Program-made: the position numbers and the translations under genes | Part shown: piece after piece, positions 3,595 to 39,891 of the stretch | How positions within the stretch are numbered: the first letter of the stretch is position 1 | Layout: every line of letters starts with the position of its first letter | The notes under the pieces: model-generated | Told to the model about the DNA's origin: nothing | The model's input: the letters and a program-made list of their open reading frames with translations, nothing else | Database searches by the model: none | Assembly: GCA_021299465.1 (NCBI GenBank) | Contig: JAJTHB010000015.1 | Coordinates: 1 to 45,409 of the forward strand | Origin: Rickettsiales bacterium | Lineage (GTDB): Bacteria > Pseudomonadota > Alphaproteobacteria > Rickettsiales > SXRF01 | DNA length: 45,409 bases | Direction: 5' to 3'

Positions 3595-4476
3595 ATGACT
3601 GCCAATGCTGTAACACTTAAAACCATGCAGCTGCCGGCGCTGATTTCGCCGGAGCAGGGTCTTAGGAAATATCTGCAGGAAATTGCAAAATTTCCGGTGC
3701 TCTCCTTGGAAGAAGAGCAGCGCCTCGCCAAGCGCTGGACCGAGCATCAGGATATTCAGGCGGCGCACCAGCTGGTCACCTCGCATCTTCGGCTGGTTGC
3801 GAAGATCGCGTTCAAATATCGCGGCTATGGGCTGCCGATGGCCGACCTCATTGCCGAGGGCAATATCGGCATGATGCAGGCGGTGAAGCGGTTTGAACCG
3901 GAAAAAGGATTTCGCCTTTCCACCTATGCGATGTGGTGGATCCGCGCAAGCATTCAGGAATATATTTTGCGTAGCTGGTCGCTGGTGAAGATCGGTTCCA
4001 GCGCCGCGCAGAAGCGACTGTTTTTCAATTTGCGTAAGCTGAAGAAAAAAATCGGCGTCGGTGATCGCGGCATGACCGACGAGCAGGCGCGCGACGTAGC
4101 GCGTATGCTGGATGTTTCGGTGGATGATGTGCGCGATATGGATAGCCGCATGAGCGGCAATGATGTCTACCTCAATAGCGCCGCCGGAGTTGATGGTGAT
4201 GAAGAAAAAATCGCTTTCCTCGCAGACCCGCGCGAAAGCCATGAAGAGCTGCTGGGTGCGCATGAAGAACTCATCGAAAAGCAGATTCTGCTGCAGAAAG
4301 CGCTTTCTACGCTGTCGGATCGCGAGCGCGATATCTTAAAGCGCCGCCGCCTGAAAGATGAGCCGGATACGCTGGAGGATTTAAGCCAGGCTTACGGCAT
4401 TTCGCGCGAGCGTGTGCGCCAGATCGAGGTTCGCGCGTTTGAGAAATTGCAGCAGGAAATGATGAAAGTCGCGTAG
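3595..4476 (+). CDS. rpoH: RNA polymerase heat-shock sigma factor RpoH (sigma-32)
   Basis: This 293-residue sigma-70 family protein directs RNA polymerase to heat-shock promoters. Region 1.2 (LRKYLQEIAKFPVL) is followed by region 2 with core-binding and -10 recognition sequence (GNIGMMQAVKRFEP, STYAMWWIRASIQEYI). The RpoH-specific box is QKRLFFNLRK at residues 139-148, which separates it from RpoD and RpoS. Region 4 ends the protein with the -35-binding helix-turn-helix (YGISRERVRQIE). The start has a GGTAGGA ribosome site and a strong promoter at 3523-3551. The stop codon TAG is itself part of the first unit of the 9-bp iterated palindrome that follows. No thermosensor stem was worked out. 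Confidence 0.97.
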   Translation: MTANAVTLKTMQLPALISPEQGLRKYLQEIAKFPVLSLEEEQRLAKRWTEHQDIQAAHQLVTSHLRLVAKIAFKYRGYGLPMADLIAEGNIGMMQAVKRFEPEKGFRLSTYAMWWIRASIQEYILRSWSLVKIGSSAAQKRLFFNLRKLKKKIGVGDRGMTDEQARDVARMLDVSVDDVRDMDSRMSGNDVYLNSAAGVDGDEEKIAFLADPRESHEELLGAHEELIEKQILLQKALSTLSDRERDILKRRRLKDEPDTLEDLSQAYGISRERVRQIEVRAFEKLQQEMMKVA

Positions 4477-4553
4477 GTTTCCAAGGTTGCGAAGGTTTCG
4501 CAGGTCGCCTAGACTCACTTAACCTACGAAACCTAAGAGACATACGAAACATC
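4472..4553. repeat. Iterated 9-bp palindrome, copy A
   Basis: The left arm is four tandem 9-mers of the form CGNAGGTTK (CGTAGGTTT, CCAAGGTTG, CGAAGGTTT, CGCAGGTCG). After a 13-base centre, the right arm holds the complementary units AACCTACGA, AACCTAAGA, GACATACGA. The whole could fold as one long imperfect hairpin. It begins in the rpoH stop codon and ends just before the ribosome site of the universal stress gene. Related copies lie at 5438-5516 and 9109-9200. Confidence 0.85.
4487..4515 (+). promoter_or_regulatory. Promoter-like pair inside palindrome copy A
   Basis: TTGCGA (4487-4492) and TAGACT (4510-4515) are 17 bases apart in the left arm, upstream of the universal stress gene. The same geometry occurs in copies B and C. 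Confidence 0.45.
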
Positions 4554-4568
4554 ATTTAAGGAGTCTTC

Positions 4569-5435
4569 ATGTACAAATCGCTTTTTGTTCCTGTTTCCAG
4601 CCACGGCAAGCAAGAAGGTGCGCTTTGCTTTGCCAGCGCCCTGTGTGATGCGTTTTCGGCGCGCGCCGAGTCGGTCTATCTTTCCAAGACGCTCGCGCTG
4701 CTCGACACAAAACAGAAAAAAGCAGTGGGCGATACCTATCGAAGCAAGGGCTATGAAGCCTCCCAGCTCCTCACCGAACAGTTTTATCAGGAGCAGTTTC
4801 ATGCAAGTAGCCAAAAAGTAAAAACATGGTTTGAGAAAACGAAAAAAGGCCTCGGCGCGCCAAAGGGGCTGGTGTGGCGCGATGCATCAGGGCTTTTCGG
4901 CGAAACCGCGCAGCAGATCGCTGATGTGACCTCGTTTTGCGATCTGACGATTGCAAGCACAGACTTAAGCGATTCGGTGTATGATGATCTGGTGCTTGGC
5001 TCGCTGTTTTTAAGCGGCAGGCCGCTCGCACTGATCAAGGATTATTCGGCGGCAAAAGAGCTGGAAAAAGCGCATATCATGGTCGCATGGAAGCACTCGC
5101 CGCAAACCCTGCGCGCGCTGTGGTATGCGCTGCCGCTGCTTAAAAAGGCCAAAGCCGTGACGCTGGTTTCGGTGGTGGAAGGCGATGAGGACGAGCAGGA
5201 TTATCTGGACGACGCCGTTTCCTATCTTTCGGATCACGGCATCAAGGCGCAAAAAATTCGCATTGATAACGCGCGCTATCCGGTGAAGGCGCTGGAAGAT
5301 GCCTATCGCGAGAAAAAAGCGGATCTCCTCGTGATGGGTGCTTATTCTCATTCACGCCTCGGCGAACTGGTGTTTGGCGGTTTCACGCGCAGCCTGCTTT
5401 TGGAGCCGAAATGCAATTTGTTTTTGGTGCATTGA
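4569..5435 (+). CDS. Universal stress protein, tandem-domain type
   Basis: This 288-residue protein has two UspA-like halves. The first (residues 1 to about 160) is diverged and has lost the nucleotide motif. The second keeps the ATP-binding signature: VMGAYSHSRLGELVFGG, starting at residue 255, matches the family pattern G-2x-G-9x-G-(S/T) with Ala in place of the first Gly pair. Such proteins bind ATP and act in stress tolerance, with no defined reaction. The start at 4569 has an AAGGAG ribosome site. It follows rpoH but is separated from it by a palindrome that may carry its own promoter. Cytoplasmic, with no signal peptide. Confidence 0.85.
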   Translation: MYKSLFVPVSSHGKQEGALCFASALCDAFSARAESVYLSKTLALLDTKQKKAVGDTYRSKGYEASQLLTEQFYQEQFHASSQKVKTWFEKTKKGLGAPKGLVWRDASGLFGETAQQIADVTSFCDLTIASTDLSDSVYDDLVLGSLFLSGRPLALIKDYSAAKELEKAHIMVAWKHSPQTLRALWYALPLLKKAKAVTLVSVVEGDEDEQDYLDDAVSYLSDHGIKAQKIRIDNARYPVKALEDAYREKKADLLVMGAYSHSRLGELVFGGFTRSLLLEPKCNLFLVH

Positions 5436-5437
5436 TG

Positions 5438-5516
5438 AAGTTTCGAACGTTGCGAAGGTTTCGGATGTTTCGTATGTTTTCTTGAACCTACGAAACCTAC
5501 GAAACATGCGAAACCT
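5438..5516. repeat. Iterated 9-bp palindrome, copy B
   Basis: Left-arm units CGAACGTTG, CGAAGGTTT, CGGATGTTT and CGTATGTTT are followed by a short centre and right-arm units AACCTACGA (twice), AACATGCGA and AACCTC. The copy starts right after the universal stress gene stop. Its right arm contains the ATG used by the next gene. The repeats are the same length as three codons, so read-through would give three-residue peptide repeats. Confidence 0.85.
5450..5478 (+). promoter_or_regulatory. Promoter-like pair inside palindrome copy B
   Basis: TTGCGA (5450-5455) and TATGTT (5473-5478) are 17 bases apart. A start near 5485 would put the right arm into a leader of about 20 bases before the ATG at 5506. 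Confidence 0.45.
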
Positions 5517-6024
5517 CTTTTCCTCCTTCTTCTCCCCCCCCGTCCTCCAGCAGCAAGCTCATGAGGCTTATGTGGCGTTGGTTGAGCGCGCGCGGGCGCC
5601 GTTTCTGTATCGCGAATGCGAAGTGGCCGATACGCTTGATGGCCGGTTTGATGCGATCATCCTTCATCTATGGCTGATCATGCAGCGGCTAAAAACAGAA
5701 ACGGGAGAAGATGCGCTTCGCTTCCAGCAAGTGCTGCAGGAGGCTTTTTTTGCCGACATGGATCGCAGCATCCGCGAATTAGGTTCAACCGATACTGGCG
5801 TTGGCAAGCGTATCAAAAACATGGCGCAGGCATTTTTTGGTCGCCTGCAGGCCTATGATCAGGCGCCGGATGATGAGGGCCTCAGGCAGGCGCTGATCCG
5901 CAATCTCTACCGTGAGAATCAGCCCCCATTAGCAGCACTTGACCGCTTGATGGCGTATATCCGCAGCGAGCAGCAACGCCTGACGCAGTGCTCGGTTCAG
6001 GATGTTATCGCAGCTAAATTCTAA
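5506..6024 (+). CDS. Ubiquinol-cytochrome c chaperone (CBP3/UQCC1 family)
   Basis: This 172-residue protein matches the CBP3-like domain used in assembling cytochrome b into the respiratory bc1 complex. Family features are the DTLDGRFDAIILHLWLIMQR block, FFADMDRSIRELGSTDTGVG and KRIKNMAQAFFGRL. The start chosen is the ATG at 5506 because family similarity begins a few residues later. The upstream open frame only translates the universal stress gene end and the palindrome. That ATG lies inside the palindrome's right arm, with no clear ribosome site. A run of eight C at 5534-5541 (codons 10-12) is a possible slippage site. The stop overlaps the convergent neighbour by four bases. Confidence 0.88.
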   Translation: MRNLFSSFFSPPVLQQQAHEAYVALVERARAPFLYRECEVADTLDGRFDAIILHLWLIMQRLKTETGEDALRFQQVLQEAFFADMDRSIRELGSTDTGVGKRIKNMAQAFFGRLQAYDQAPDDEGLRQALIRNLYRENQPPLAALDRLMAYIRSEQQRLTQCSVQDVIAAKF

Positions 6025-6734
6025 ATGCTTTCAACGGTTGGTTTTTTCAGCGCATCATTTCGGGCAGCGGTTGCCAGATAGGCCGCGATAATCGGGCGCG
6101 GCGGCGTTTGAGTTGGCGCTGCTGCCTGTGCGGGTTCGGCTTCGACTGGTTCCGCTGGTTTGGCCTCACTCTCAGCTTCTGTTTCTTTGAGTGGCGCCGG
6201 AGTTTTGATTGCTGTGCTGCCGAGGCTCGCTTGCTGGGCATTTGCAGTTGCGGCCTGTGCCATTAGTGCTGTTTGCGTGGATGCTTTGGTTTGCTGTTCT
6301 TGTTTTAAGATCTGGCTGAAAATATTATTCGGTTCCGGCTCCGGCATGCTCGCATTGCTGGGTTTGTATTTTACCTGCGAGAGCACCACCAGCTTTTCAT
6401 ATTCCGAGAGTACACCGCGCGCATAAGGTGAATTGTCCTGACTGATCAGCTGTGCCATGAAGGTCGTCGAGGCGTTCAGGCTCAGGCTGCTTGGGGTGCC
6501 GTCCAGAAAAGTAACCAGTGAACTAAAGCCGCTGGCAACCGTAGACGTTACAGGCGCTGCCTGCGAACTTGTTGCACCGCTACCCCGTCTTGTATTATCG
6601 CCGACAGGAACGTTAGAAACATTCGGCGCGACATTATCGGGAGCAACGCGCAGCACGTTATTTCCCGGAACCGTGGTGGCCACGATTACGGGGGCAGGTA
6701 CAATAACAGGTGCGCTATTGACGGCTGGCAACAT
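6021..6734 (-). CDS. Unrecognised Ala/Pro/Gln-rich protein
   Basis: This 237-residue protein is not one I recognise. The first 80 residues are rich in Val, Pro, Asn and Ser. A middle block (FSSLVTFLDG to KLVVLSQVKY) looks folded. The last 90 residues are low-complexity Ala, Gln, Glu and Pro ending in a more ordered tail. There is no signal peptide or transmembrane helix. The ATG at 6734 is the first possible start after an in-frame stop. A good sigma-70-type promoter lies at 6772-6800, so transcription is likely even though coding evidence rests on length and context. The stop codon interlocks with that of the bc1 chaperone gene. A disordered scaffold or surface-structure component is possible but not shown. 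Confidence 0.7.
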   Translation of the reverse strand: MLPAVNSAPVIVPAPVIVATTVPGNNVLRVAPDNVAPNVSNVPVGDNTRRGSGATSSQAAPVTSTVASGFSSLVTFLDGTPSSLSLNASTTFMAQLISQDNSPYARGVLSEYEKLVVLSQVKYKPSNASMPEPEPNNIFSQILKQEQQTKASTQTALMAQAATANAQQASLGSTAIKTPAPLKETEAESEAKPAEPVEAEPAQAAAPTQTPPRPIIAAYLATAARNDALKKPTVESI

Positions 6735-6771
6735 GCCAAATACTTTCTCTACATGAGTCCCCTAATTTATT

Positions 6772-6800
6772 AGTCTAGCATAACGATACAAAAAAGTCAA
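6772..6800 (-). promoter_or_regulatory. Sigma-70-type promoter of the 237-residue gene
   Basis: On the minus strand TTGACT (6800-6795) and TAGACT (6777-6772) are separated by 17 bases. The predicted start is near 6765, about 31 bases before the ATG at 6734. The rest of the AT-rich 6735-6879 gap should hold the divergent sco promoter; TTAAGT (6812) and TATGAT (6837) are weak candidates with 19-base spacing. Confidence 0.65.
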
Positions 6801-6879
6801 AAAACACCAAATTAAGTCTATGAAATATAAATAAAATATGATACATCGCGACCCATCCAACCCCAAATAGGCAACGACT

Positions 6880-7626
6880 ATGAGAAAAACACTGCTACCT
6901 ATTATCCTGATTTTGCTTGTTTTAACGACAGTAATGCTGTGGATGACCAAAGACCAGCCCAGCGTACCGCAGCAGGTTGCGACCTCGCCATCGGCCGAAC
7001 TCGCCAACCAGCCACCGCCAGCGATCGGGGGAGCCTTTTCGCTGATAGGCCAGAACGGCCAGGCCGTTTCGGATGCTGATTTTCGCGGTAAGCTGATGCT
7101 GGTATTTTTCGGTTTCACCAATTGTCCGGACATCTGCCCGATTACCGCGAAATCGCTCTCGGATATGATGGGGCTGCTGGGTGATAAGGCGGATCAGGTG
7201 GCGCCGATTTTCATCACAGTCGATCCTGAGCGCGATACGCCGGAAGTGATGAAAAACTATTTTGCAAGTTTCGATCAGCGCATTCAGGCGCTCACGGGAA
7301 CGCCCGAGCAGATCAAGCAAGCGGCTTCTGCCTACAAGGCTTACTATGCGAAAGCGCAGCCGGAAGATGAGCAGGCGCAGGATCAGCAGATTGCAGGTCG
7401 TGAAGATGTGGCAGAGCCAGATGATCATGACGGGCATGGCGCAGCCCAGAATGATCCGCATGCTGGGCACGCTGCCCACGGCGGTCATGGCGCGAATGCT
7501 AATTACCTCGTCGATCATTCGGGCTATATTTACCTCATGAGCCGCGACGGTGTATATGTGAAGCATTTCCAGTATGATGCTTCGCCGGAGCAGCTGGCAG
7601 CAGCCGTGAAGGAGCTTTTGAACTAG
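6880..7626 (+). CDS. sco1: Sco1/SenC copper chaperone with His-rich insertion
   Basis: Sco proteins deliver copper to the CuA site of cytochrome oxidase and have a thioredoxin-like fold. This 248-residue protein has an N-terminal membrane anchor (residues 4-22). The copper ligands are Cys82 and Cys86 in TNCPDICP and the distal His213 in VDHSGYIYLM. Between the domain core and His213 lies an insertion, roughly residues 165-207. Its residues 181-206 contain seven histidines spaced as HDGHG and HAGHAAHGGHG repeats, which is unusual. The protein is anchored with its domain in the periplasm. It starts 3 bases upstream of gmk in effect (stop 7626, next ATG 7629), so the two are probably cotranscribed. 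Confidence 0.92.
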   Translation: MRKTLLPIILILLVLTTVMLWMTKDQPSVPQQVATSPSAELANQPPPAIGGAFSLIGQNGQAVSDADFRGKLMLVFFGFTNCPDICPITAKSLSDMMGLLGDKADQVAPIFITVDPERDTPEVMKNYFASFDQRIQALTGTPEQIKQAASAYKAYYAKAQPEDEQAQDQQIAGREDVAEPDDHDGHGAAQNDPHAGHAAHGGHGANANYLVDHSGYIYLMSRDGVYVKHFQYDASPEQLAAAVKELLN

Positions 7627-7628
7627 CC

Positions 7629-8282
7629 ATGTCGCTTCAGCGCAGCATCGAGCTTAAACGTAGGGGATTGCTCTTTATCCTTTCGTCGCCGTCGGGCGCG
7701 GGCAAGACCACGCTGTCACGAAAGCTGCTTGCGCGCTATGACAAGGCGGCAGCGCATGAGGCGATTCGCATGTCGGTGTCGGTCACCACGCGTAAACCCC
7801 GCCCGGGCGAAAAGCACGGCGAGGATTATTTTTTCCTTTCTGATGAGGAATATCAGCGCATGGTGGCGGGCGGTGAACTGCTGGAACATGCCAAGGTGTT
7901 TGAATATCACTACGGCACACCGGCGCATTTTGTGCGCGGCTGCATTGGTCAGGGCACCGACGTGCTCTTCGATATTGACTGGCAGGGCACACAGCAGCTG
8001 AAGAGCAAAAACCCGGATGACCTCGTGAGCGTGTTCATCCTGCCGCCTTCGATGAGCGAGCTGGAGCGCCGCCTGAAAGCCCGCGCGCAGGACAGCGATG
8101 AGGTGGTGAAAAAGCGCATGAGCAAGGCCGAGGCGGAGATCAGCCACTGGCAGGAATATGACTATGTGCTGATCAACCATGATCTTGGTGAGACGCTGGA
8201 AAAAATCGATTCCATTCTGAAGGCAGAACGTCTACGGCGTGTACGTCAGGAGGGGCTGGCTGGGTTTATTTCTTCGCTATAG
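7629..8282 (+). CDS. gmk: Guanylate kinase
   Basis: This enzyme phosphorylates GMP to GDP with ATP. The 217-residue protein has the P-loop SSPSGAGKTT at residues 19-28, the GMP-binding SVTTRKPRPGE block and the later GTD.LFDIDWQG segment of the family. The length is normal. It begins two bases after the sco stop. The 3' end overlaps the convergent rsmA gene by 17 bases, so the last residues of both proteins are encoded by the same DNA. Cytoplasmic. Confidence 0.97.
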   Translation: MSLQRSIELKRRGLLFILSSPSGAGKTTLSRKLLARYDKAAAHEAIRMSVSVTTRKPRPGEKHGEDYFFLSDEEYQRMVAGGELLEHAKVFEYHYGTPAHFVRGCIGQGTDVLFDIDWQGTQQLKSKNPDDLVSVFILPPSMSELERRLKARAQDSDEVVKKRMSKAEAEISHWQEYDYVLINHDLGETLEKIDSILKAERLRRVRQEGLAGFISSL

Positions 8283-9105
8283 CTGCGGCCAACCTACAAA
8301 ACTCTTCCACGCTTAATTGCTCAGCGCGTTTGGTGCCATCAATACCGCTAGCTGCGAGCAGCTGTTCGATATCCACACCCAGCGTTTTAAGCGAGACACG
8401 CAGCATTTTGCGGCGCTGGTTGAAGGCGCTAGCCAGCACTTTTTCCAGCGCTTCTTTAGGCACCTCCACCAGCGGTTTTTCTCGCGGCGTCAGGGTGATC
8501 ACAGCGGAATGGACTTTGGGCGGCGGGCTGAAGGCTTCGGGCGGCAGATCCATATCCCAGCGTGCTTCGCACAGCCACTGAGCAAACACTGACAAGCTCC
8601 CGTAAGCCTTGCTTCCCGGCGCAGCGGTGATGCGCTCGGCCACTTCTTTCTGGAACATCAGGGTGAGGGATTCGAAGTTCGAGCCGGGCGTAGCATAAAT
8701 CTGCTCCAGCCAATTTAGCAGCAGCTGCGTGCCGACATTGTAAGGCAGGTTGGCGATGACCCTTCGTGGCGGCGGCACTTGCTTGAGCAGGTTTACGCTG
8801 AGCGCATCCTCATGCAGGATGGTCAGCCTGTCGGGAAAAGCTTCAGCGAGTTCGTGCATGATGGCAATCGCGCGGTCATCTTTTTCCACCACATAGACGT
8901 GCTTCGATTTTGAACGCAGCAGCGAGCGCGTAAGCCCGCCCGGGCCGGGGCCGATTTCGATGGCGCTGATCCCGTTTAAGTCTCCTGCGTAGCGCACGAT
9001 TTGCTCGGTAATACCCTCATCCAGCAGGAAATGCTGGCCGAGCGATTTCTTTGCATCAAGGCCATAGCGGTGGATGGTGGCAGCGAGTGTAGGAAGTTGT
9101 TGCAT
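8266..9105 (-). CDS. rsmA: 16S rRNA dimethyladenosine transferase RsmA (KsgA)
   Basis: RsmA dimethylates two adjacent adenosines near the 3' end of 16S rRNA during small-subunit maturation. The 279-residue protein has the entry motif KKSLGQHFLLDE, the SAM-binding EIGPGPGGLTRSLL and the catalytic NLPYN. The C-terminal helical domain has a typical FNQRRKMLRVSLK segment. The ATG at 9105 lies next to the edge of palindrome copy C, which carries a possible minus-strand promoter. No strong ribosome site is visible, since the bases before the ATG are GCAACCTAACATCC. It converges on gmk. Confidence 0.96.
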   Translation of the reverse strand: MQQLPTLAATIHRYGLDAKKSLGQHFLLDEGITEQIVRYAGDLNGISAIEIGPGPGGLTRSLLRSKSKHVYVVEKDDRAIAIMHELAEAFPDRLTILHEDALSVNLLKQVPPPRRVIANLPYNVGTQLLLNWLEQIYATPGSNFESLTLMFQKEVAERITAAPGSKAYGSLSVFAQWLCEARWDMDLPPEAFSPPPKVHSAVITLTPREKPLVEVPKEALEKVLASAFNQRRKMLRVSLKTLGVDIEQLLAASGIDGTKRAEQLSVEEFCRLAAAIAKK

Positions 9106-9124
9106 GGATGTTAGGTTGCGAAAG

Positions 9125-9153
9125 TTGCGTAGGTTTCGGAAGTTGCGTATGCT
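9125..9153 (+). promoter_or_regulatory. Plus-strand promoter-like pair inside copy C
   Basis: TTGCGT (9125-9130) and TATGCT (9148-9153) are 17 bases apart, facing the CobD/CbiB-like gene at 9205. Confidence 0.45.
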
Positions 9154-9158
9154 TGCTT

Positions 9159-9187
9159 AACCTACGAAACCTAAGAAACATACGCAA
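9159..9187 (-). promoter_or_regulatory. Minus-strand promoter-like pair inside copy C
   Basis: On the minus strand TTGCGT (9187-9182) and TAGGTT (9164-9159) are 17 bases apart, facing rsmA. The -10 match is weak. In copies A and B, which have no minus-strand gene to serve, this arm lacks TTGCG. Confidence 0.35.
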
Positions 9188-9204
9188 CCTACGAAACCTC
9201 ATCT

Positions 9205-10119
9205 ATGGATCATGCCCTCATCGCTTTACTGGCATTGCTGCTGAATCTTGCTCTTGGCGGGCCGAGGGCGCTGTATGAGGCCAGCGGCATTGTTCGCTTG
9301 TCGCGTATTCCGGCGAAGCTGCTGCGCGACCGCGAGCCATTTTTTACTAAGGAAAATCAACCGATTCTGCTGGTAGGCTACACCCTTGCGATGGCTTGTG
9401 CGACAGGGCTTTTTTTCCATTTCATCCTGCGCGGCAATATTCAGTTTGTGGAAATTATCATCGTCGCCTGCCTGCTGCCGATCCGGCCGGCGCTGGAGCG
9501 CGTATGGTTTATCCGTACCGCCCTGATGGCTGGCGATGTTACGGGGGCGCGAAAACAGCTCGAAGGTACGGTATGGAAGCATCATGTGCTGCTTGATGAG
9601 CATGGTGTGGCGCGCGCCGGCGCTGAGCTTGCAGCGGCGGTGTTTCATGAGCGTTTACTGCATCCGCTGATATGGTATCTCGCGCTTGGCCTGCCAGGAT
9701 TATTGGTATGCCGCAGTGTGACACTGATGAAAGAGGCTCTGCCCTCCTCCTTTAATGCGGAGGGTTATATTCACCAGCTCACCTTTGGTGTGTTTAAGCT
9801 TACGAGCTGGGTTTCATCGCGGCTCATGGCGATCATCTGGCTCATAGCCTCGCTGTTTGTACCGCCGTCCGATGCTCTAAAAACCAGTAACCAGCTGGCC
9901 TCTTCCGCTACGACGGCAGCACCGCTTGCTTATGCGATTGAGGCGGTGGCGGTGGTGCTTGGGGCGGCGCTGGGCGGGCCGACATCGGCGTATGTGAACC
10001 AGATCTGGCTGGGCAGCGGTTCAGCAAAACAAGCGCCAGCGCAGCTTTACCGCCTGCTTATCATGAGCGGTTTTGCGCTGGTGGTAATGCTACTTCTTCT
10101 TGGGCTTTTTGCGAGCTAG
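9205..10119 (+). CDS. Divergent CobD/CbiB-like (or AmpE-like) membrane protein
   Basis: This 304-residue integral membrane protein has hydrophobic segments near residues 3-18, 53-75 and 83-95, around the ALGLPGLLV stretch, and at the C terminus. The general pattern resembles CbiB/CobD, the membrane amidase that joins aminopropanol to adenosylcobyric acid. The family's ENTSDG-type active segment is replaced here by FHERLLHPLIWYLALGLPG, and no other cobalamin gene is in the window. A non-biosynthetic paralogue, as in the related AmpE branch, is therefore more likely. The ATG at 9205 follows palindrome copy C directly. The 3' end overlaps the convergent patatin gene by 30 bases. Confidence 0.6.
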   Translation: MDHALIALLALLLNLALGGPRALYEASGIVRLSRIPAKLLRDREPFFTKENQPILLVGYTLAMACATGLFFHFILRGNIQFVEIIIVACLLPIRPALERVWFIRTALMAGDVTGARKQLEGTVWKHHVLLDEHGVARAGAELAAAVFHERLLHPLIWYLALGLPGLLVCRSVTLMKEALPSSFNAEGYIHQLTFGVFKLTSWVSSRLMAIIWLIASLFVPPSDALKTSNQLASSATTAAPLAYAIEAVAVVLGAALGGPTSAYVNQIWLGSGSAKQAPAQLYRLLIMSGFALVVMLLLLGLFAS

Positions 10120-11163
10120 ATCGGTCATCGCCATGCCGCAGGTTGGGCCGGTGAGAAACTTATCACGGATATTCAGCGTGGATTTCTTGCCGATATCACT
10201 CCAGTGTGCCTTTAGCCATTCATCGGCATTCTGCCTGCCCATATTTTTGAGATAGACAAAAAAATCCCAGTCCGCGTTCATCTTGCTTGAGGCGTTGAGC
10301 TCATGCATCTCATCGGCTGCGTAGACAAGGTGCATCTTGATGTCCTTGTACTGCTTCTTATCGAGCTTGCCCTCTTTAATCAGGCGCGAGACAAAATCAA
10401 TCGCGCGCATCTCAGCGATCAGGCTGGAGTTGAAGGTGATTTCATTGAGGCGGTTGATGATCTCGCTTGCGGAGCGCGGCAGCTGCGTGTTGCGAATAGG
10501 GTTGATTTGCACCAGCAATACATCATCGCTTTTGCAATTATAAATCAGCGGCCAGATGGCGGGGTTACCCATATAGCCGCCGTCCCAGTAATGATCGCCG
10601 TCAATCTCAATCGCCTGAAACAAAAACGGGATGCAGGCCGAGGCGAGCAGCACATCAGTGGTGATTTCCTCACAGGAAAAGACGCGCGCCTGACCGCTTT
10701 CGACATGGGTTGCGGCGATGAAAATCTTGATCAGTCCACAAGCTTTGATAGCGTCGTGATCGAGCATGTCATCAAGGATGTAGCGCATCGGATTTAAATT
10801 CATCGGGTTCAAATCGTAAGGCGAGAACATGCGGCTCATCAGATCCACCCACTGGTAGCTTGCTGTATTATCCATGTTCCAGCCGGAAAAGGCGCGCTCA
10901 AAAGGGTTTTTGTGTAAGGGGCCGAACGCGCCCGCCTCGCTGATCCGCATCCAGAAACGCTCAAGGTCCTCCTTCGCGCCCTCGCGGCCGTTTTTCATGT
11001 AGCCGTTTACGAGCAGCGCGGCGTTCATCGCACCGGCAGAGGTGCCGGAGATGCCATCAATGGTTAAGTCTTTTTCCTCCAGCAGTCTGTCGAGCACGCC
11101 CCAAGTGAACGCCCCGTGCGCGCCGCCGCCCTGAAGGGCGAGATTGATGGTTTTGCTGGTCAT
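10090..11163 (-). CDS. Patatin-like phospholipase
   Basis: Patatin-family lipases use a Ser-Asp dyad to release fatty acids from lipids. This 357-residue protein has the oxyanion-hole motif GGGAHG (residues 12-17), the nucleophile Ser42 in GTSAG and the catalytic Asp194 in DGG. The C-terminal half, after about residue 260, is helical and may be a separate domain. The start at 11163 is chosen because its ATG overlaps the stop of the upstream dehydrogenase as ATGA, which implies translational coupling, and because the family motif begins ten residues later. The longer frame to 11229 would read into the dehydrogenase gene. Coupling to a ketone-body enzyme suggests lipid or polyhydroxybutyrate turnover. 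No signal peptide is seen. Confidence 0.9.
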   Translation of the reverse strand: MTSKTINLALQGGGAHGAFTWGVLDRLLEEKDLTIDGISGTSAGAMNAALLVNGYMKNGREGAKEDLERFWMRISEAGAFGPLHKNPFERAFSGWNMDNTASYQWVDLMSRMFSPYDLNPMNLNPMRYILDDMLDHDAIKACGLIKIFIAATHVESGQARVFSCEEITTDVLLASACIPFLFQAIEIDGDHYWDGGYMGNPAIWPLIYNCKSDDVLLVQINPIRNTQLPRSASEIINRLNEITFNSSLIAEMRAIDFVSRLIKEGKLDKKQYKDIKMHLVYAADEMHELNASSKMNADWDFFVYLKNMGRQNADEWLKAHWSDIGKKSTLNIRDKFLTGPTCGMAMTDLARKKPKKK

Positions 11164-11942
11164 TGTGCTGTCCAGCCGCCATCCATCGAGATCACCTCTC
11201 CGGTCATGGCCGCGCTGTGGGGGCCGCACAGGAACACCGCCATCGCGCCGATATCTTCCGGCGTGTTGAAGCGTTTTTTTGGTTGTTTTTCGCCGAGCAG
11301 TTCTGCCTCGGCTTTTTTGGCATCGCAGCCCTGCGCCTTTGCGCGGTCATCGATCTGTTTTTGCACCAGCGGGGTCAGCACCCAGCCCGGGCAGATGGCG
11401 TTGGCGGTGATGTTGAAATCTGCCGTTTCCAGCGCGGTAACTTTGGTCAGGCCTAAAATGCCATGTTTGGAAGCGACATAGGCCGATTTCTGTTTGGAGG
11501 CGACAAGGCCATGCGCCGAGGCGATGTTGATGATGCGGCCAAAGTTATTTTTTTTCATTCCCGGCAAAGCTGCTTTCATCGCATGGAACGCCGATGACAG
11601 GTTGATGGCGATGATCGCATCCCATTTTTCCTGCGGGAAATCCTCGACATTGGCGGTGAACTGGATACCGGCGTTATTGACTAAAATATCGCAGCTACCG
11701 AACGTATCTTCGCACTGCTTCACCATCGCCGCAATCTGGTCGGGTTTACTCATATCAGCGCTCGAATGAGCATCTTTAACGCCATATTTAGCCGCGATAT
11801 CTTTCAGCTCTGCATCAATCGCCGCCGCATCGCCGAAACCATTGATCAGTACATTGCAGCCGCTTTCCGCGAGCTTGTAAGCGATGCCCATGCCGATACC
11901 GGAGGTGGAGCCGGTGACGATAGCGTTTTTTCCTTTAAGCAT
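11160..11942 (-). CDS. bdhA: 3-hydroxybutyrate dehydrogenase (short-chain dehydrogenase)
   Basis: This 260-residue short-chain dehydrogenase probably interconverts 3-hydroxybutyrate and acetoacetate with NAD. It has the cofactor motif TGSTSGIG (residues 10-17), NNAG at 89-92, and the catalytic Ser142, Tyr155 and Lys159 in the segment ASAHGLVAS...YVASK. The family-specific AICPGWVLTPLV and LLGEKQP segments support the 3-hydroxybutyrate assignment over FabG. The start at 11942 is preferred because AAGAAAGGAAA lies upstream. An earlier ATG at 11987 falls inside the neighbouring inverted repeat. The gene is coupled to the patatin lipase. Confidence 0.9.
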   Translation of the reverse strand: MLKGKNAIVTGSTSGIGMGIAYKLAESGCNVLINGFGDAAAIDAELKDIAAKYGVKDAHSSADMSKPDQIAAMVKQCEDTFGSCDILVNNAGIQFTANVEDFPQEKWDAIIAINLSSAFHAMKAALPGMKKNNFGRIINIASAHGLVASKQKSAYVASKHGILGLTKVTALETADFNITANAICPGWVLTPLVQKQIDDRAKAQGCDAKKAEAELLGEKQPKKRFNTPEDIGAMAVFLCGPHSAAMTGEVISMDGGWTAQ

Positions 11943-14223: not shown

Positions 14224-15060
14224 TTACCGCCCCATTTCCCGCCTGGTCTGGCTGATGGAAGCCTCAACAAAATTACCCACCAGATTCATGCCTTGGGTCG
14301 CCATTTTCTTTAGCATATCGCGGGAATTTTCAAAAAGGGCGAGCTGGGTAAGGCTGTAATCCATATGCGCCTGTTCAAGTTTTGCGCGCTGCTTGTCTTT
14401 GGCTTTGCTTTTATTTTTGAGGCCGGCGATCAGTTTTTTAATCAGCTCAGGTTTTTTCATGCCGCCATTTTGGATAAAGGCGATAAGTTCGGCGCGCAGC
14501 CGCTCGTCCTCTAAGTGATTGGCGAGGTTTGTGATGGCACTGCTATTTCCTTTCTCGCACTGCTGGATGATGGCGCTAAGTTCGCGCACATCCTGATCGA
14601 GATCGCCCGTGCGTTCATGGGTATCAGCGTCGGCCTGCGGCTTGAGCAGCGCGGCGAACAGCACGCTGTAATTCTGGTAAAGCTCGACAAGGCGTTCCTT
14701 GGTTTTTCGGTCAGGGCGTTTTGGGGTAGCGACCAGCTGGTGATCCAGCGCCACTAGCTCGCTATGCGGTGAATCCATGCCGCCTTTTGCCTTAAACGGC
14801 GATAGCGGCATGGAAAGGATATAGCGCAGGCACTGCACATCATAGCTAAGAAATTCTACCCCCAGCCGGCCGCCATTTTCGAGGTGCTTGCTATCTCCGG
14901 AAAACAGCGCCTGCACCGCGTCATGGAAATAATCAATGCGCGGCCTGAAATCCCCCTCGCCGATCACCAGCGCATAGTCGCTTTCAATGGCTCGGATCTC
15001 CTCATAAAGCCGTGTCATCAGGCTGACGAGCTGCTCTTGTTCTTTGGGTGAAAGTTTCAT
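14224..15060 (-). CDS. Unrecognised helical protein
   Basis: This 278-residue soluble protein is predicted by eye to be mostly helical and charged, with a Lys-rich stretch (LKNKSKAKDKQRAKLEQ) before a C-terminal amphipathic segment. I do not recognise a family. The start at 15060 (MKLSPKEQEQ) is chosen because the longer upstream frame translates the inverted repeat and then runs antisense into hemW. No strong ribosome site is visible. The gene is bracketed by two copies of one inverted-repeat family, an arrangement that can reflect past mobility or chance. It lies between a response regulator and hemW, on the same strand as the regulator. Confidence 0.72.
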   Translation of the reverse strand: MKLSPKEQEQLVSLMTRLYEEIRAIESDYALVIGEGDFRPRIDYFHDAVQALFSGDSKHLENGGRLGVEFLSYDVQCLRYILSMPLSPFKAKGGMDSPHSELVALDHQLVATPKRPDRKTKERLVELYQNYSVLFAALLKPQADADTHERTGDLDQDVRELSAIIQQCEKGNSSAITNLANHLEDERLRAELIAFIQNGGMKKPELIKKLIAGLKNKSKAKDKQRAKLEQAHMDYSLTQLALFENSRDMLKKMATQGMNLVGNFVEASISQTRREMGR

Positions 15061-19368: not shown

Positions 19369-19372
19369 AGAA

Positions 19373-19392
19373 GTTTCGAAACCTGCGCAACC
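19373..19392. repeat. Degenerate remnant of the 9-bp iterated repeat
   Basis: The short stretch AGTTTCGAAACCTGCGCAAC reads as one left-type unit followed by right-type units of the 9-bp family. It occupies nearly the whole gap between the BON lipoprotein and gshB, and the gshB ATG follows an AACCT unit, as at copy C. It lacks the TTGCG motif and a full arm. Confidence 0.45.
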
Positions 19393-19394
19393 TT

Positions 19395-20306
19395 ATGCAT
19401 ATCGCCATTCAAATGGATCCGCTCGCCACGATGAAATATGCGACGGATTCGACATTGCGTCTGGGGCTGGAAGCGCAGCGCCGCGGGCATAGGATTTGGG
19501 TTTATACGCCGGAAAAGCTTGCGCTTCGTGATGGCAGGATTACTGCCGCAGCCCAGCATGTTTCGTTTTTTGATGCTCCTGATCGCATGTTCGACATCCA
19601 TGAATCGGCGCGCCTCGATTTGTCAGAGATGGATGTGATTCTTCTGCGCCAGGATCCGCCCTTTGACATGGCCTATCTTTCGACTACCTACGTGCTCGAG
19701 CGCCTCCAGCCGGAGGTGTTTGTTTTTAACGATCCCGCATCGGTTAGAAACCATCCCGAAAAATTATTCCCCACGGTTTTTGCGCAGTTCATGCCTCCGA
19801 CGCTGGTGACCGCCGATGGTGACGAGATCGCGGCGTTCAGGCGCGAATTTAAGGATATCGTGATCAAGCCGCTTTATGGTTATGCGGGTCATGATGTGGT
19901 GCGCGTGAAGCCGGATGACGCACTCACATTGGATGCGATGCGTGAGCCGGTGATGGTGCAACCTTTCCTGCCGGAAGTGAAAACAGGCGACCGGCGCATT
20001 ATCCTGATTGACGGTGAGATAGGCGGCATCATGGCGCGGATTCCCGCCGAGGATGATTTTAGGGCGAATTTCCGCGTCGGTGGCCATCCTGAAAAAGCGG
20101 TCATGACGCCCCGCCAGAGAGAGATTTGCGAAGCATTAAAACCGGAGATGAAACGTCTTGGCATTGTGTTTGCGGGGATCGATTGCATCGGCGACACCTT
20201 AACCGAGATCAACATCACCTCCCCCACCGGTATTGCTGCGATGAACCGGCTTTATGGCCTGAAGCTAGAATCTCAGATCTGGGACGCGGTAGAAGCAAAG
20301 ATCTAG
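19395..20306 (+). CDS. gshB: Glutathione synthetase
   Basis: GshB joins gamma-glutamylcysteine and glycine using ATP. This 303-residue ATP-grasp enzyme has the N-terminal IAIQMDPLATMKYATDST signature, the substrate segment VFNDPASVRNHPEKLF, the ATP-binding IVIKPLYGYAGHDVVRV and the glycine-binding ITSPTGIAAMNRL end. The length is normal. The ATG at 19395 has no clear ribosome site and follows a repeat remnant. The stop interlocks with the cysQ stop (CTAG). Its first gene of the pathway (gshA) is not in the window. Confidence 0.96.
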   Translation: MHIAIQMDPLATMKYATDSTLRLGLEAQRRGHRIWVYTPEKLALRDGRITAAAQHVSFFDAPDRMFDIHESARLDLSEMDVILLRQDPPFDMAYLSTTYVLERLQPEVFVFNDPASVRNHPEKLFPTVFAQFMPPTLVTADGDEIAAFRREFKDIVIKPLYGYAGHDVVRVKPDDALTLDAMREPVMVQPFLPEVKTGDRRIILIDGEIGGIMARIPAEDDFRANFRVGGHPEKAVMTPRQREICEALKPEMKRLGIVFAGIDCIGDTLTEINITSPTGIAAMNRLYGLKLESQIWDAVEAKI

Positions 20307-31616: not shown

Positions 31617-33397
31617 CAGGACCGACCGAAGAGTTTCTGGATATCCCGTTCTTTTAGCGTAAGTGTGGTCGGTCGTCCATGATTGCATTGACCGGAAAGC
31701 GGTGTGGCTTCCATTTGCCTGAGTAATGCGTTCATTTCTGCAATCGACAGACTACGGCCAGCGCGCACGCTGCCGTGGCAGGCCATGGTGCCGGCGAGTG
31801 CTTCGATGCGTTCCTTAAGGGCGATGGTCTCGCCGAATTCGCTGATATTATCGGCTAGCTCGCGCACGAGTCCGCTCGCATCGATCTCGCCTAGCATGGC
31901 AGGGATTTCGCGCACCACCAGCGAGTCCGGCCCAAAGGCTTCAATCACCAGACCAAATGCTTTAAGTTCCTCGCTCCGTGCCAGCAGCGCTTCGCAAAGG
32001 GCGGGTTTTAGGCTTATCACTTCTGGTAGCAGCAGCGCTTGGCGCGCGATACCGCCTTCCTTCATCTGTGCTTTCATGCTTTCAAGCACGAGGCGTTCAT
32101 GGGCGGCGTGCTGGTCAACGATCACCAGCCCGTCCGATGTTTCTGCTACGATATAAGTTTTGTGCAGCTGCGCGCGAGCGGCGCCAAGCGGATAGGCGGT
32201 ATAGTCTGGTTCGCTTGTTTCAGAGAATGCGGGCCTTGCCATCGGCGGTGTCATTGCAGGATCTAGCAATTCAAGAGGCTCATAAAAGCGCGGCGCGGCT
32301 TCGTGCAGCGCATAGGTGGGTTGGGCTGTGCGTGCGAAATTTTGGCTCGGGATGAAACGTGTCAGCGCGTCATTGCTGGCGCTGCTCGAAGTACGAAATC
32401 CTGCTTCCGCGAGCGCATGGCGAATACCGCCGATAATAAGTCCGCGCACTTGCTGCTGGTCACGAAACCGCACCTCGGCTTTCGCAGGGTGCACGTTGAC
32501 ATCGACTTCTTCGGGCGGCAGGTCAAGAAACAGCGCGACCACCGGATGACGGTCATGGGCGAGCACATCCTGATAAGCGGCTTTGACAACACCAAGCAAT
32601 AACCGGTCGCGCACAGGCCTGCTGTTGACAAACAGATATTGCTCGCTTGACGTGCCACGATTAAACGTGGGCAGCGCAGCAAAGCCGGAAAGGCGGATAT
32701 TTTCGCGCTGCATGGCAAGCGCGAGCGCGTTATCGGCAAATTCCTTGCCCATCAGATCACTCAGGCGCGCAAGCCTTGCATCAAGCAGATCGCCCTGAGC
32801 GCCATCCATGCGTAGCGAAGCTTTGCCATCAATCATCAGGCTAAAAGATATATTTGGATTCGCCATCGCGAGGCGTCTGATTACATCCTGCACCTGGCCG
32901 GTTTCACTGCGGTCGCTCTTTAAGAACTTAAGCCGCGCCGGGGTTGCAAAAAATAAATCACGCACGCTGATACGCGTGCCAACACTGCGCGCTGCGGGAC
33001 GTGGCGCGGAGACATCGCCAGCTTCAATGCTGATCTGCCATGCCTCAGCCTCGCCACGTGCGCGGCTTTCGATTGTCATGCGGCTCACCGATCCAATCGA
33101 CGGCAGTGCCTCGCCGCGAAAACCAAGCGTGCGGATATCCAGCAGATCATCAGAAGGCAGCTTGGAGGTGGCGTGGCGCTGCACCGCGAGCGTCAGTTCC
33201 TCACGGTTCATGCCTTTGCCATTGTCACTGATGATGATGGCGTTCTTTCCCGCTTCTTCGAGCGAGATATCAATTTGTGTCGCGCCGGCATCGATGGCGT
33301 TTTCAACCAGCTCTTTGACAGCTGATGCTGGCCGTTCAATGACTTCGCCGGCAGCGATGCGATTAATGAGCGTGCTGGGCAGCAGGCGAATGGTCAT
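31616..33397 (-). CDS. mutL: DNA mismatch repair protein MutL
   Basis: MutL couples mismatch recognition by MutS to strand removal. The 593-residue protein has the GHKL ATPase motifs in order (ELVENAIDAG, DNGKGMNREEL, TLGFRGEALPSI, then GTRISVRDLFFATPAR). The C-terminal domain has VDQHAAHERLVLE, ACHGSVRAG and CNHGRPT, the metal-binding motifs of endonuclease-type MutL, so it probably nicks DNA itself. Its ATG overlaps the pgi stop as ATGA. MutL neighbours cell-surface and metabolic genes here without an evident functional link. Confidence 0.97.
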   Translation of the reverse strand: MTIRLLPSTLINRIAAGEVIERPASAVKELVENAIDAGATQIDISLEEAGKNAIIISDNGKGMNREELTLAVQRHATSKLPSDDLLDIRTLGFRGEALPSIGSVSRMTIESRARGEAEAWQISIEAGDVSAPRPAARSVGTRISVRDLFFATPARLKFLKSDRSETGQVQDVIRRLAMANPNISFSLMIDGKASLRMDGAQGDLLDARLARLSDLMGKEFADNALALAMQRENIRLSGFAALPTFNRGTSSEQYLFVNSRPVRDRLLLGVVKAAYQDVLAHDRHPVVALFLDLPPEEVDVNVHPAKAEVRFRDQQQVRGLIIGGIRHALAEAGFRTSSSASNDALTRFIPSQNFARTAQPTYALHEAAPRFYEPLELLDPAMTPPMARPAFSETSEPDYTAYPLGAARAQLHKTYIVAETSDGLVIVDQHAAHERLVLESMKAQMKEGGIARQALLLPEVISLKPALCEALLARSEELKAFGLVIEAFGPDSLVVREIPAMLGEIDASGLVRELADNISEFGETIALKERIEALAGTMACHGSVRAGRSLSIAEMNALLRQMEATPLSGQCNHGRPTTLTLKERDIQKLFGRS

Positions 33398-38481: not shown

Positions 38482-39367
38482 GGGTGATTTGTTCCTTCAG
38501 CGCGTCGGCGCCTTCAAATTTTTTCTCATCACGAATGAAGTGCTTAAGGCTCACCATGGCATAGCGGCCATACACCTCCTCAGCAAGTCCAAACGCATGG
38601 GCTTCGAGCAGCGGCGTGTGAACACCAAAGGTTGGTTTCACCCCGATATTCACCACCGCATCAAACATCTTTCCTGCGACTTCCAGCTTTGCCGCGTAAA
38701 CGCCTTTTCGTGGGATGAAGCGTTTTTTTAGGGCGATGTTCATGGTGGGAAAGCCGAGCTTTCTGCCGCGCGCTTCGCCGCGTATCACATGGCCGGCGAT
38801 GGCGTAATCATCCCCGAGCATGGCGCGGGCGCCCACCAAATCTGCTTCTTTCAGCAGCTCGCGGATGGCGCTGGAGGAGGCCATGCGGCCCTCTCCGTCC
38901 GTCACGGCAGCGGCGGCAGTGAAGCCAAAGCCATGCGCGCGCGCTTTCTGCGTCAGGAATTCGCTATCCCCTCCTCTGCCCTTGCCGAAAGCAAAATTAC
39001 TGCCGGTTACCACATGGCGCACGCCGAGTGTTTTGACGAGTAATCCTTCTACAAAATCATCGGCGCTGGTCGATGCTAAGGCCCCATTAAAACGAAGCAG
39101 GATCAGCTGATCAGCGCCGAGGCCAGCGATGGCGCCAGCCTTTTGTTTGAAAGAAAAAAGACGCAGCGGTTCGCTTGCGCGGCCAAAAAACTCCCGCGGA
39201 TGCGGCTCGAAACTCATCACCGCGGCGGGCACGCCAAGCGCACGTGCCAGCGCCACCGATTCACGTATAATCTCACGGTGGCCGAGATGCACCCCATCGA
39301 AATTACCGATGGCAAGCACGCAGCCTTTTGGAAAAAGATCGGGTTTGACGTCGCGGGTGAGTTTCAT
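38444..39367 (-). CDS. ribF: Riboflavin kinase / FAD synthetase
   Basis: RibF makes FMN and then FAD. The 307-residue bifunctional enzyme has the adenylyltransferase motif IGNFDGVHLGHREII, FEPHPREFF and SSSAIRELL in the first half, and the flavokinase motif GRKLGFPTMNI with GVYAAKLE in the second. It sits in front of lspA, as is common in Proteobacteria (ribF-ileS-lspA elsewhere, here without ileS). Its ATG overlaps the maoC stop as ATGA. Confidence 0.96.
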   Translation of the reverse strand: MKLTRDVKPDLFPKGCVLAIGNFDGVHLGHREIIRESVALARALGVPAAVMSFEPHPREFFGRASEPLRLFSFKQKAGAIAGLGADQLILLRFNGALASTSADDFVEGLLVKTLGVRHVVTGSNFAFGKGRGGDSEFLTQKARAHGFGFTAAAAVTDGEGRMASSSAIRELLKEADLVGARAMLGDDYAIAGHVIRGEARGRKLGFPTMNIALKKRFIPRKGVYAAKLEVAGKMFDAVVNIGVKPTFGVHTPLLEAHAFGLAEEVYGRYAMVSLKHFIRDEKKFEGADALKEQITHDTHTARTILAR

Positions 39368-39801
39368 TGTGGGCGCGAGGGAACCTTGATGAGCGCCTCA
39401 CCATCCACCACCAGTGTATCGCGCACGAAACACTGAGTGGTAAGTAGCGCGCGCTTTTTTTCAGTGTTGAGCTCCCGCACGGTGGCAGTGGCATAAACGG
39501 TATCGCCGACGCGCACCGGCGCTAAAAATTTCAGCGTCTGGCTCATATAGATGCAGCCCGGGCCGGGCAGTTTGGTGCCGATCACGGCGGAGATCAGGCT
39601 GGCGGTGAGCATACCGTGCACGATGGTGCCGCCGAAAATGGTTTGCTTGGCAAATTCTTCGCTCAGGTGCATCGGGTTGGTATCGCCGGAGACGCCTGAA
39701 AAGTTGCGCAGGTCGGTCTCGGTAATCGTGCGCGAGACGCTCGCCTGCTGGCCGAGCTTTAGCTCTTCAAAGAAATAACCGTGTAGCCCGGGATGTTCCA
39801 T
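39364..39801 (-). CDS. MaoC-like hot-dog dehydratase, (R)-enoyl-CoA hydratase type
   Basis: This 145-residue protein has the hydratase-2 signature GVSGDTNPMHLSEEFAKQTIFGGTIVHGML, with the catalytic Asp and His of PhaJ-type enzymes. Such enzymes supply (R)-3-hydroxyacyl-CoA from fatty-acid oxidation, sometimes for polyhydroxyalkanoate. The 15 bases before the ATG contain C-rich repeats and no ribosome site. Upstream is secF. The gene is coupled to ribF. Confidence 0.9.
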   Translation of the reverse strand: MEHPGLHGYFFEELKLGQQASVSRTITETDLRNFSGVSGDTNPMHLSEEFAKQTIFGGTIVHGMLTASLISAVIGTKLPGPGCIYMSQTLKFLAPVRVGDTVYATATVRELNTEKKRALLTTQCFVRDTLVVDGEALIKVPSRPQ

Positions 39802-39803
39802 GT

Positions 39804-39891
39804 CAGGGGTCGGGGGTTAGGGGTCAGGGGTTAGTATCTGTGATTGTGGGGATTTAATCTGATCCCCAATCCCCGATTCCTGATCCCTGAT
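39804..39891. repeat. Iterated G-rich inverted repeat with G-quadruplex motif
   Basis: On the plus strand, G runs at 39806-39809, 39812-39816, 39820-39823 and 39827-39830 are separated by loops of 2-3 bases, a canonical G-quadruplex pattern in units like TTAGGGG and TCAGGGG. A complementary C-rich arm follows (ATCCCCAATCCCCGATTCCT, then GATCCCTGA). The element holds the secF stop and last codons, and the region just before the maoC ATG. Confidence 0.8.

Follow-up and report, generated by a model that had tools for sequence, protein, structure and literature searches.

Palindromes of tandem 9-bp units in a Rickettsiales genome are probably cargo-less copies of an element that carries an IVP gene

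What are the palindromes that fill several gaps between genes in this genome? The window, the whole stretch of DNA analysed here, is the 45,409-nucleotide contig JAJTHB010000015.1 of a Rickettsiales bacterium (assembly GCA_021299465.1). A preliminary description of the window reported three intergenic palindromes built from tandem 9-bp units, and all three were found at those positions. What the family belongs to was not visible to that description. We now place the arrays as the ends of an element carrying a gene for the 23S rRNA-intervening sequence protein (IVP/S23; PF05635). Such an IVP element consists of a small gene for a PF05635 four-helix bundle with an array of tandem units on each side, the two arrays being inverted relative to each other; the units are 7-9 bp long, and 9 bp in the present family. 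Taken as one joint reading, the palindromes are probably cargo-less ("solo") copies of a minimal mobile IVP element whose arrays IVP probably binds. The arrays appear to be recognised, most likely by IVP; we infer binding and mobilisation from the evidence below, which consists of bracketing in a sister species, an association across the order and across phyla, solo copies elsewhere, insertion polymorphism and conservation of the unit cores.

An IVP gene lies between arrays of the same 9-mers in the sister species

The window's own genome (G000) was compared with a sister species of the same genus (G001). On contig C8 of the sister, positions 32569-33029 hold a 461-bp element with five forward (F) units, an IVP open reading frame (ORF) starting 2 bp after them, and then the complementary reverse (R) units. 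In the coordinates of locus L179, the F units lie at 14569-14613, the 120-aa ORF at 14616-14978 and the R units at 14985-15029. The ORF matches PF05635 with an E value of 2.7e-34. A second copy with cargo, on C107, is truncated by the contig end and also matches PF05635 (E 3.6e-32). Within the genus, bracketing of a PF05635 gene by these arrays was thus found in the sister and not in the window's own genome. Only the 120-aa ORF fits between the sister arrays, and the cargo-bearing copy has no transposase. The nearest solved structure to IVP is XCC0516 (PDB 2gsc, E 1.7e-19; five four-helix bundles).

In the sister, the 461-bp element sits exactly at the place that corresponds to an ATGA of the window, 11160-11164, where the window species has an empty site. 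Its edges provide the TAG and the ATG of the neighbouring genes. Where they overlap, the two sister IVP copies are identical at 84 of 112 residues. Their pS of 0.836 against a pN of 0.17 points to purifying selection on the protein. L179:14569-15029 and L187:5368-5752 have near-equal arrays beside the same patatin-like gene, with synonymous sites saturated (pS 0.836). This pair could reflect cargo exchange between conserved ends or a mixed-strain assembly.

Inverted unit arrays bracket IVP genes across the order

PF05635 gave 82 rows in 29 of 90 genomes, including three rows in the window's own genome. The flanks of 67 of the 82 rows were tested. Ten rows were not included, one flank was cut by a contig end, L259, L262, L264 and L265 were not refound by tblastn, and two duplicate loci were dropped. 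Flanks were measured from the end of the conserved domain, and the threshold was the 99th percentile of 500 random pairs. An inverted flank match above threshold was seen for 62 of the 67 IVP genes of the order vs 5 of 191 matched controls. Direct flank repeats exceeded the threshold in 2/67 IVP genes vs 12/191 controls. An earlier version of the test, measured from the stop codon, passed only 36/67 (99th percentile of 400 random control pairs), since in several cases the reading frame ran on through the downstream array. The best-scoring period in the 62 was 7 bp in 46, 8 bp in nine, 9 bp in four and another value in three. Among array stretches that could be called, the upstream arm was G-rich in 54/58, and so was the downstream arm, when read on the opposite strand, in 63/65.

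The association was also found outside the order, where the flanks of 13 of 16 IVP genes scored higher than every one of their 100 mononucleotide shuffles. These 16 comprise Acidobacteriota locus L052, 13 plasmid regions (of 28 IVP-bearing plasmid records) and two IMG/VR contigs, and cover Cyanobacteria, Acidobacteriota, Gemmatimonadota, Azospirillum and IMG/VR. Repeats of 7-8 bp are still visible by eye at the three that fail (L267, L268 and L270). A scan of seven IVP loci against Rfam gave no match.

Unit sequences vary among elements, whereas within an element the two arms have the same unit. Similarity of the IVP proteins and similarity of their units were correlated weakly overall (Spearman 0.14, a value reached by none of 500 permutations). 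The units therefore turn over quickly while both arms keep the same unit, and this concerted change is the most puzzling part of the picture.

Orientation could be evaluated for 61 of 68 IVP genes of the order, with strands called by the longest open stretch; the other seven have short flanks. Both neighbours were on the strand of the IVP gene in 53/61, and no gene was antisense to both (0/61). Antisense cases do occur among plasmid IVP genes. Several IVP genes lie between neighbours of the same function, such as ribonucleotide reductase, cas10/cmr3 and cas6/cas4 genes. Two IVP elements of cyanobacterial plasmids, at L270 and L272, have cas genes on either side, a position that may account for reports that IVP is CRISPR-associated. 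Elements of AGGTTTT/AGGTTAC type occupy what appears by eye to be the same gap between pyruvate dehydrogenase alpha and beta genes in several genera (L202, L213, L220, L221 and L247). An old insertion or a preferred site could account for them.

Structure of the palindromes in the window

The features of the window that bear on the family are as follows (arm coordinates of the three 9-mer palindromes follow the 9-mer framing).

4463-4555: cargo-less palindrome 1, rpoH-usp gap; F arm 4463-4507, R arm 4520-4555
3595-4476 and 4569-5435: rpoH and usp, flanking palindrome 1
5435-5519: cargo-less palindrome 2, usp-chaperone gap; F arm 5435-5479, R arm 5484-5519
5506-5508: ATG of the ubiquinol-cytochrome c chaperone gene, within the R arm of palindrome 2
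9110-9202: cargo-less palindrome 3, ksgA/cbiB divergent gap; F arm 9110-9154, R arm 9158-9202
8266-9105 (minus strand) and 9205-10119 (plus strand): ksgA and cbiB/cobD, flanking palindrome 3
11160-11164 (minus strand): empty site, an ATGA stop/start overlap of SDR-type and patatin-like genes (names by eye)
19370-19396: relic with one F unit and about two R units remaining
39802-39891: further cargo-less palindrome, of 7-mers (GGGGTYA type), missed by the preliminary description
39364-39801 and 39817-40773 (both minus strand): MaoC-like gene and secF, flanking the 7-mer palindrome

In each 9-mer palindrome, about 90 bp long, about five CGNANGTTK units and about five complementary ones stand on either side of a short centre. 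By eye, the outermost three letters on each side belong to the flank, and the element spans roughly AGGTT to AACCT. The units had been described as CGNAGGTTK. They are tandem 9-mers as claimed, but position 5 varies, with G in 72 of 117 forward-arm units, and CGNANGTTK fits better. CGNAGGTTK exceeds chance expectation in the window, with nine occurrences against 2.65 expected, and none of 100 shuffles gets to nine. The palindromes do fill their gaps. The proposed overlap with stop or start codons holds for palindrome 1, which contains the rpoH stop TAG, and for palindrome 2, which contains a start; palindrome 3 overlaps no start. RNA folding gave z scores of -4.6 to -4.9 on the plus strand and -2.8 to -7.3 on the minus strand for the three palindromes. 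The window had no match in Rfam. The genes beside the elements share no functional theme.

Distribution of the family and gain or loss between sister species

The own genome was scanned for three tandem units with up to three mismatches. This gave 48 matches, vs 0 for a reversed control pattern, which cluster by eye into 10 loci; one of them, on contig C8, has a single arm only. The sister had 88 matches, or 18 loci by eye, of which 16 are cargo-less palindromes and two have cargo. Across 90 genomes scanned with up to one mismatch, the arrays occur in these two species and in none of the 88 other relatives. Pattern matches in named genomes were also checked for facing arrays (at least 113 stretches). 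Among the matches listed, most were plain tandem repeats with no reverse partner; exceptions noted by eye include some records of Acidobacteriota (e.g. L049, L052 and L055) as well as the sister species. The palindromes had been proposed to differ from repetitive extragenic palindromic (REP) sequences and from plain tandem repeats, and the results support a genuine dispersed family that is distinct from both. Many intergenic copies with variable unit numbers had been expected; the copies are many and dispersed, while the variation in number is slight (4-5 units per arm, with six in five of 48 arms).

Seven palindromes are common to both species (blast and alignment of matching stretches), palindromes 2 and 3 among them. 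Palindrome 1 is found in the window species only, and the sister has a terminator-like hairpin, by eye, at that place. Conversely, the copies at C6:20326 and C46:5911 of the sister are found only there. Together with the IVP-bearing copy, these are insertions present or absent at orthologous sites, as is expected of a mobile element. The relic had been described as a degenerate fourth copy at 19373-19392; it is real, and its counterpart in the sister is intact (C8:24332-24420). At C6:21002 the gap holds a 9-mer palindrome in the sister and a palindrome of 7-mers (TAGTGCT type, by eye) in the window species. This swapped gap (L178:9002-9110 on C6 of G001; L194, about 7015-7115, on C33 of G000) could be a hot spot or an in-place unit swap. 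At L184:4175-4413 (C24 of G001), two similar 9-mer palindromes stand in tandem together with a copied flank.

Neighbour orientation was called by the longest open stretch at 26 places, a few with small margins. These include the relic, the palindrome of 7-mers and a place with a single arm; the C24 pair was counted once. As called, 14 places were codirectional, 10 divergent and two convergent. The relic was mis-called divergent, since its Pfam-supported neighbours are both on the plus strand; corrected, the counts are 15, nine and two. At 24 of the 26 places, one or more of the neighbouring genes has its 5' end beside the element.

Cargo-less copies in other genomes

The AGAGTTC unit was seen by eye around an IVP gene in G061 and G081. 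Arrays of this unit gave 30 matches in G061 and 36 in G081, at most four in each of six other genomes and none in 82. Besides the IVP copies, 16 of 31 AGAGTTC loci are convergent (facing) pairs, namely 12/12 in G061 and 4/19 in G081. The second arm is weak in two of the four G081 pairs (L282 and L283). In the own genome, the IVP gene on contig C16 has GGGATTM arrays around it, and the unit of the palindrome at 39802-39891 is similar to theirs. A GGGRTYM pattern matches that IVP copy and other places, including 39802-39891. Its control was not empty (14 vs 34 matches). Four of the five GGGRTYM loci in the own genome are facing pairs, the loci having been chosen by eye and partly for looking paired.

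Conservation of the unit letters

The letters of the 9-mer do not change at the same rate. In the seven shared palindromes, the core letters (positions 1, 2, 4, 6, 7 and 8) are identical between the species at 346 of 388 sites. The variable letters (3, 5 and 9) are identical at 111 of 192. For the flanks the count is 587 of 745. Four neighbouring genes differ at their synonymous sites by 0.47-0.63. The unit cores are thus under constraint, and the variable letters are close to neutral.

Pairing between the arms was also assessed. In register, variable letters match between arms at 0.363 vs 0.397 in shuffled arms (0.348 vs 0.400 when aligned from the inner end). When G-U pairs are counted, p falls to 0.025 and 0.044 at two of the 14 register shifts. 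Among 78 deviating core pairs in the outer alignment, one is compensated and 19 more remain as G-U. The inner alignment gives 11 of 117 compensated and 24 as G-U, a count that includes the three flank-derived outermost letters of each arm. The compensatory pairing expected of an RNA hairpin or intrinsic terminator was therefore not found. Because the cores are kept, the variable letters drift and the arms lack co-variation, the sequence appears to be recognised unit by unit, presumably by a protein rather than as an RNA hairpin.

Observations that weigh against a mobile IVP element

Several results count against the proposal that the palindromes are solo copies of an IVP element. The own genome has three IVP genes, and none has 9-mer arrays. 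Its 9-mer cores nevertheless deviate at 16 of 362 positions vs 27 of 380 in the sister; a genome with no 9-mer IVP copy keeps the cores equally, and their retention therefore does not require a cognate IVP. Clear inverted flanks are missing in five of the 67 IVP genes, and by periodicity alone 20/67 exceed the control's 99th percentile. Unit similarity climbs sharply only above 60% IVP identity, as co-inheritance would also predict. Solo copies elsewhere are uneven, since 15 of the 19 AGAGTTC loci in G081 are single arrays, and GGGTGCT gave the IVP copy itself in G070 plus one match in G013, with no solos. No clear target-site duplication was seen in the empty-site alignments. That IVP genes lie so consistently in sense orientation hints at a step at the RNA level, which a DNA-only model does not need. 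Finally, both binding and movement are read from sequence comparison.

Alternative explanations

One alternative is that the arrays, which originated in IVP elements, now serve a host protein as operator-like or nucleoid sites and are kept for regulation of the neighbouring genes, with movement rare or over. This would fit the conservation of cores at the seven shared sites across a large synonymous divergence, their decay at no faster rate in the species lacking a 9-mer IVP copy, and the position beside a 5' end at 24 of 26 places. We think it unlikely given the gains and losses between the sisters, including the gap whose palindrome is made of 9-mers in one species and of 7-mers in the other. 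In addition, the neighbours of the window elements have no common theme and no regulator was identified. It is also conceivable that the palindromes are passive hairpin repeats, in which replication slippage and template switching make inverted arrays that IVP genes tolerate or attract. The arrays do look slippage-made, and units differ among elements while the arms of one element share theirs. Passive origin would not be expected to bracket one gene family near-universally (62/67 vs 5/191), to place shared units at dispersed loci of one genome, or to conserve cores against near-neutral variable letters, so we regard it as improbable.

RNA hairpins acting as terminators or mRNA stabilisers would explain the stable folds and the terminator-like hairpin that the sister has in place of palindrome 1. 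The two register shifts with G-U pairs counted, and the G-U pairs among deviating cores (19/78), would also agree with RNA pairing. This explanation was set aside as very unlikely, since the arms show no in-register co-variation, a single deviating core pair of 78 is compensated, only two of 26 places were called convergent and the window has no Rfam match. The palindromes are short, intergenic and dispersed, as are REPINs moved by a RAYT (Y1) transposase and the miniature inverted-repeat transposable elements (MITEs) of ordinary transposons. An origin of either kind is hardly credible. The RAYT profile PF01797 had no match in G000 or G001, while it was present in two of six genomes searched, and the sole cargo found between these arrays is IVP.

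Comparison with known systems

The IVP element resembles the intervening sequences (IVSs) of 23S rRNA genes, for example that of Coxiella, in which a small S23/IVP ORF lies between inverted repeats (PMC4990558, in the portion available). Sizes are similar, at 428 nt for the Coxiella IVS and 461 bp for the sister element. The Coxiella stem is a 28-bp inverted repeat, whereas here there are arrays of 7-9 bp units, a position between protein genes and dispersed cargo-less copies. The window elements lie between protein genes and not inside an rRNA gene. According to the same excerpt, IVSs have terminal inverted repeats, their origin and function are unclear, and mobility was suggested earlier. 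The available part of PMC4692102 describes intergenic tandem 7-mers, GGGAATC in Xanthomonas and GGGGA(C/T)T in Nostoc. Two arrays face each other in 70 cases in X. campestris, Nostoc arrays are rarely paired, and as a rule the heptamer repeats show no tie to mobile elements. The intergenic tandem 7-mers, with facing pairs in X. campestris, are like the arrays here, and that part of the paper names neither S23/IVP nor xcc0516. X. campestris also encodes an IVP, the XCC0516 of PDB 2gsc. The STRR heptamers of cyanobacteria are likewise tandem 7-mers. The IVP genes examined on cyanobacterial plasmids are bracketed by arrays of 7-8-mers, and a link between STRR and IVP was not found in the open-licence literature searched.

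Like MITEs, the palindromes are short, have no coding capacity and share their inverted ends with a larger, cargo-bearing copy. They are unlike MITEs in that this larger copy has no transposase, the ends are unit arrays and there is no clear target duplication. Rickettsia palindromic elements are also dispersed palindromes; we know of no unit arrays or IVP link in them. PF05635 is said to resemble Avd of diversity-generating retroelements, with homology suggested (PMC10053308, part of the text). Unlike for Avd, a reverse transcriptase (RVT_1) is missing in most IVP-bearing genomes searched. It is absent from G001, which holds the 9-mer IVP copies, and from six more of nine such genomes, and is present in G061 and in G000, where a single partial match lies on C2 and this contig has no IVP match. 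A reverse-transcriptase partner was therefore rejected as a general feature.

Sections of other papers report 18 IVP genes in cas loci (PMC3936711), IVP beside CRISPR genes (PMC10910872), and IVP ORFs in rRNA insertions of bacteria of the Candidate Phyla Radiation, with the IVP domain functionally uncharacterised (PMC11270868). The available portions of PMC4679880 and PMC8700078 contain no link of IVP genes to unit arrays. No link between IVP/S23 and array repeats was found in the literature searched, which consisted of open-licence papers; one may be in print elsewhere. Within that literature, IVP genes bracketed by unit arrays and accompanied by dispersed cargo-less copies may be unreported.

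Proposed mechanism and significance

If the palindromes are solo IVP elements, an IVP multimer would bind the units one by one on both arms and bring the two ends of the element together. Host replication or repair enzymes could then copy or insert the element between genes, and IVP would mobilise cargo-less copies in trans. Surviving insertions would mostly be those at gene junctions, places in which the outermost unit can provide a stop or start codon. Some settled copies might be kept since their units remain a binding platform. A host-level role of such copies is possible because the species lacking a 9-mer IVP keeps the cores as well as its sister does.

A broader claim, which we put forward tentatively and at slightly less than even chances, is that IVP/S23 is the protein for recognition, and perhaps for mobility, in a class of minimal mobile elements that has gone unrecognised, spans phyla and has no known transposase. 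Under this claim, elements of the class would end in inverted arrays whose units, 7-9 bp in length, change in concert over the divergence of lineages. The STRR heptamers, the GGGAATC pairs of Xanthomonas and the 9-mers described here would be its cargo-less copies. If this is true, rRNA intervening sequences are one special landing place of the class. The bracketing of IVP genes by inverted arrays, with cargo-less copies at other loci, itself makes the array a testable substrate for the IVP protein. It also offers a likely reason for the position of IVP genes inside cas and other operons, and several unexplained repeat families may share a common origin.

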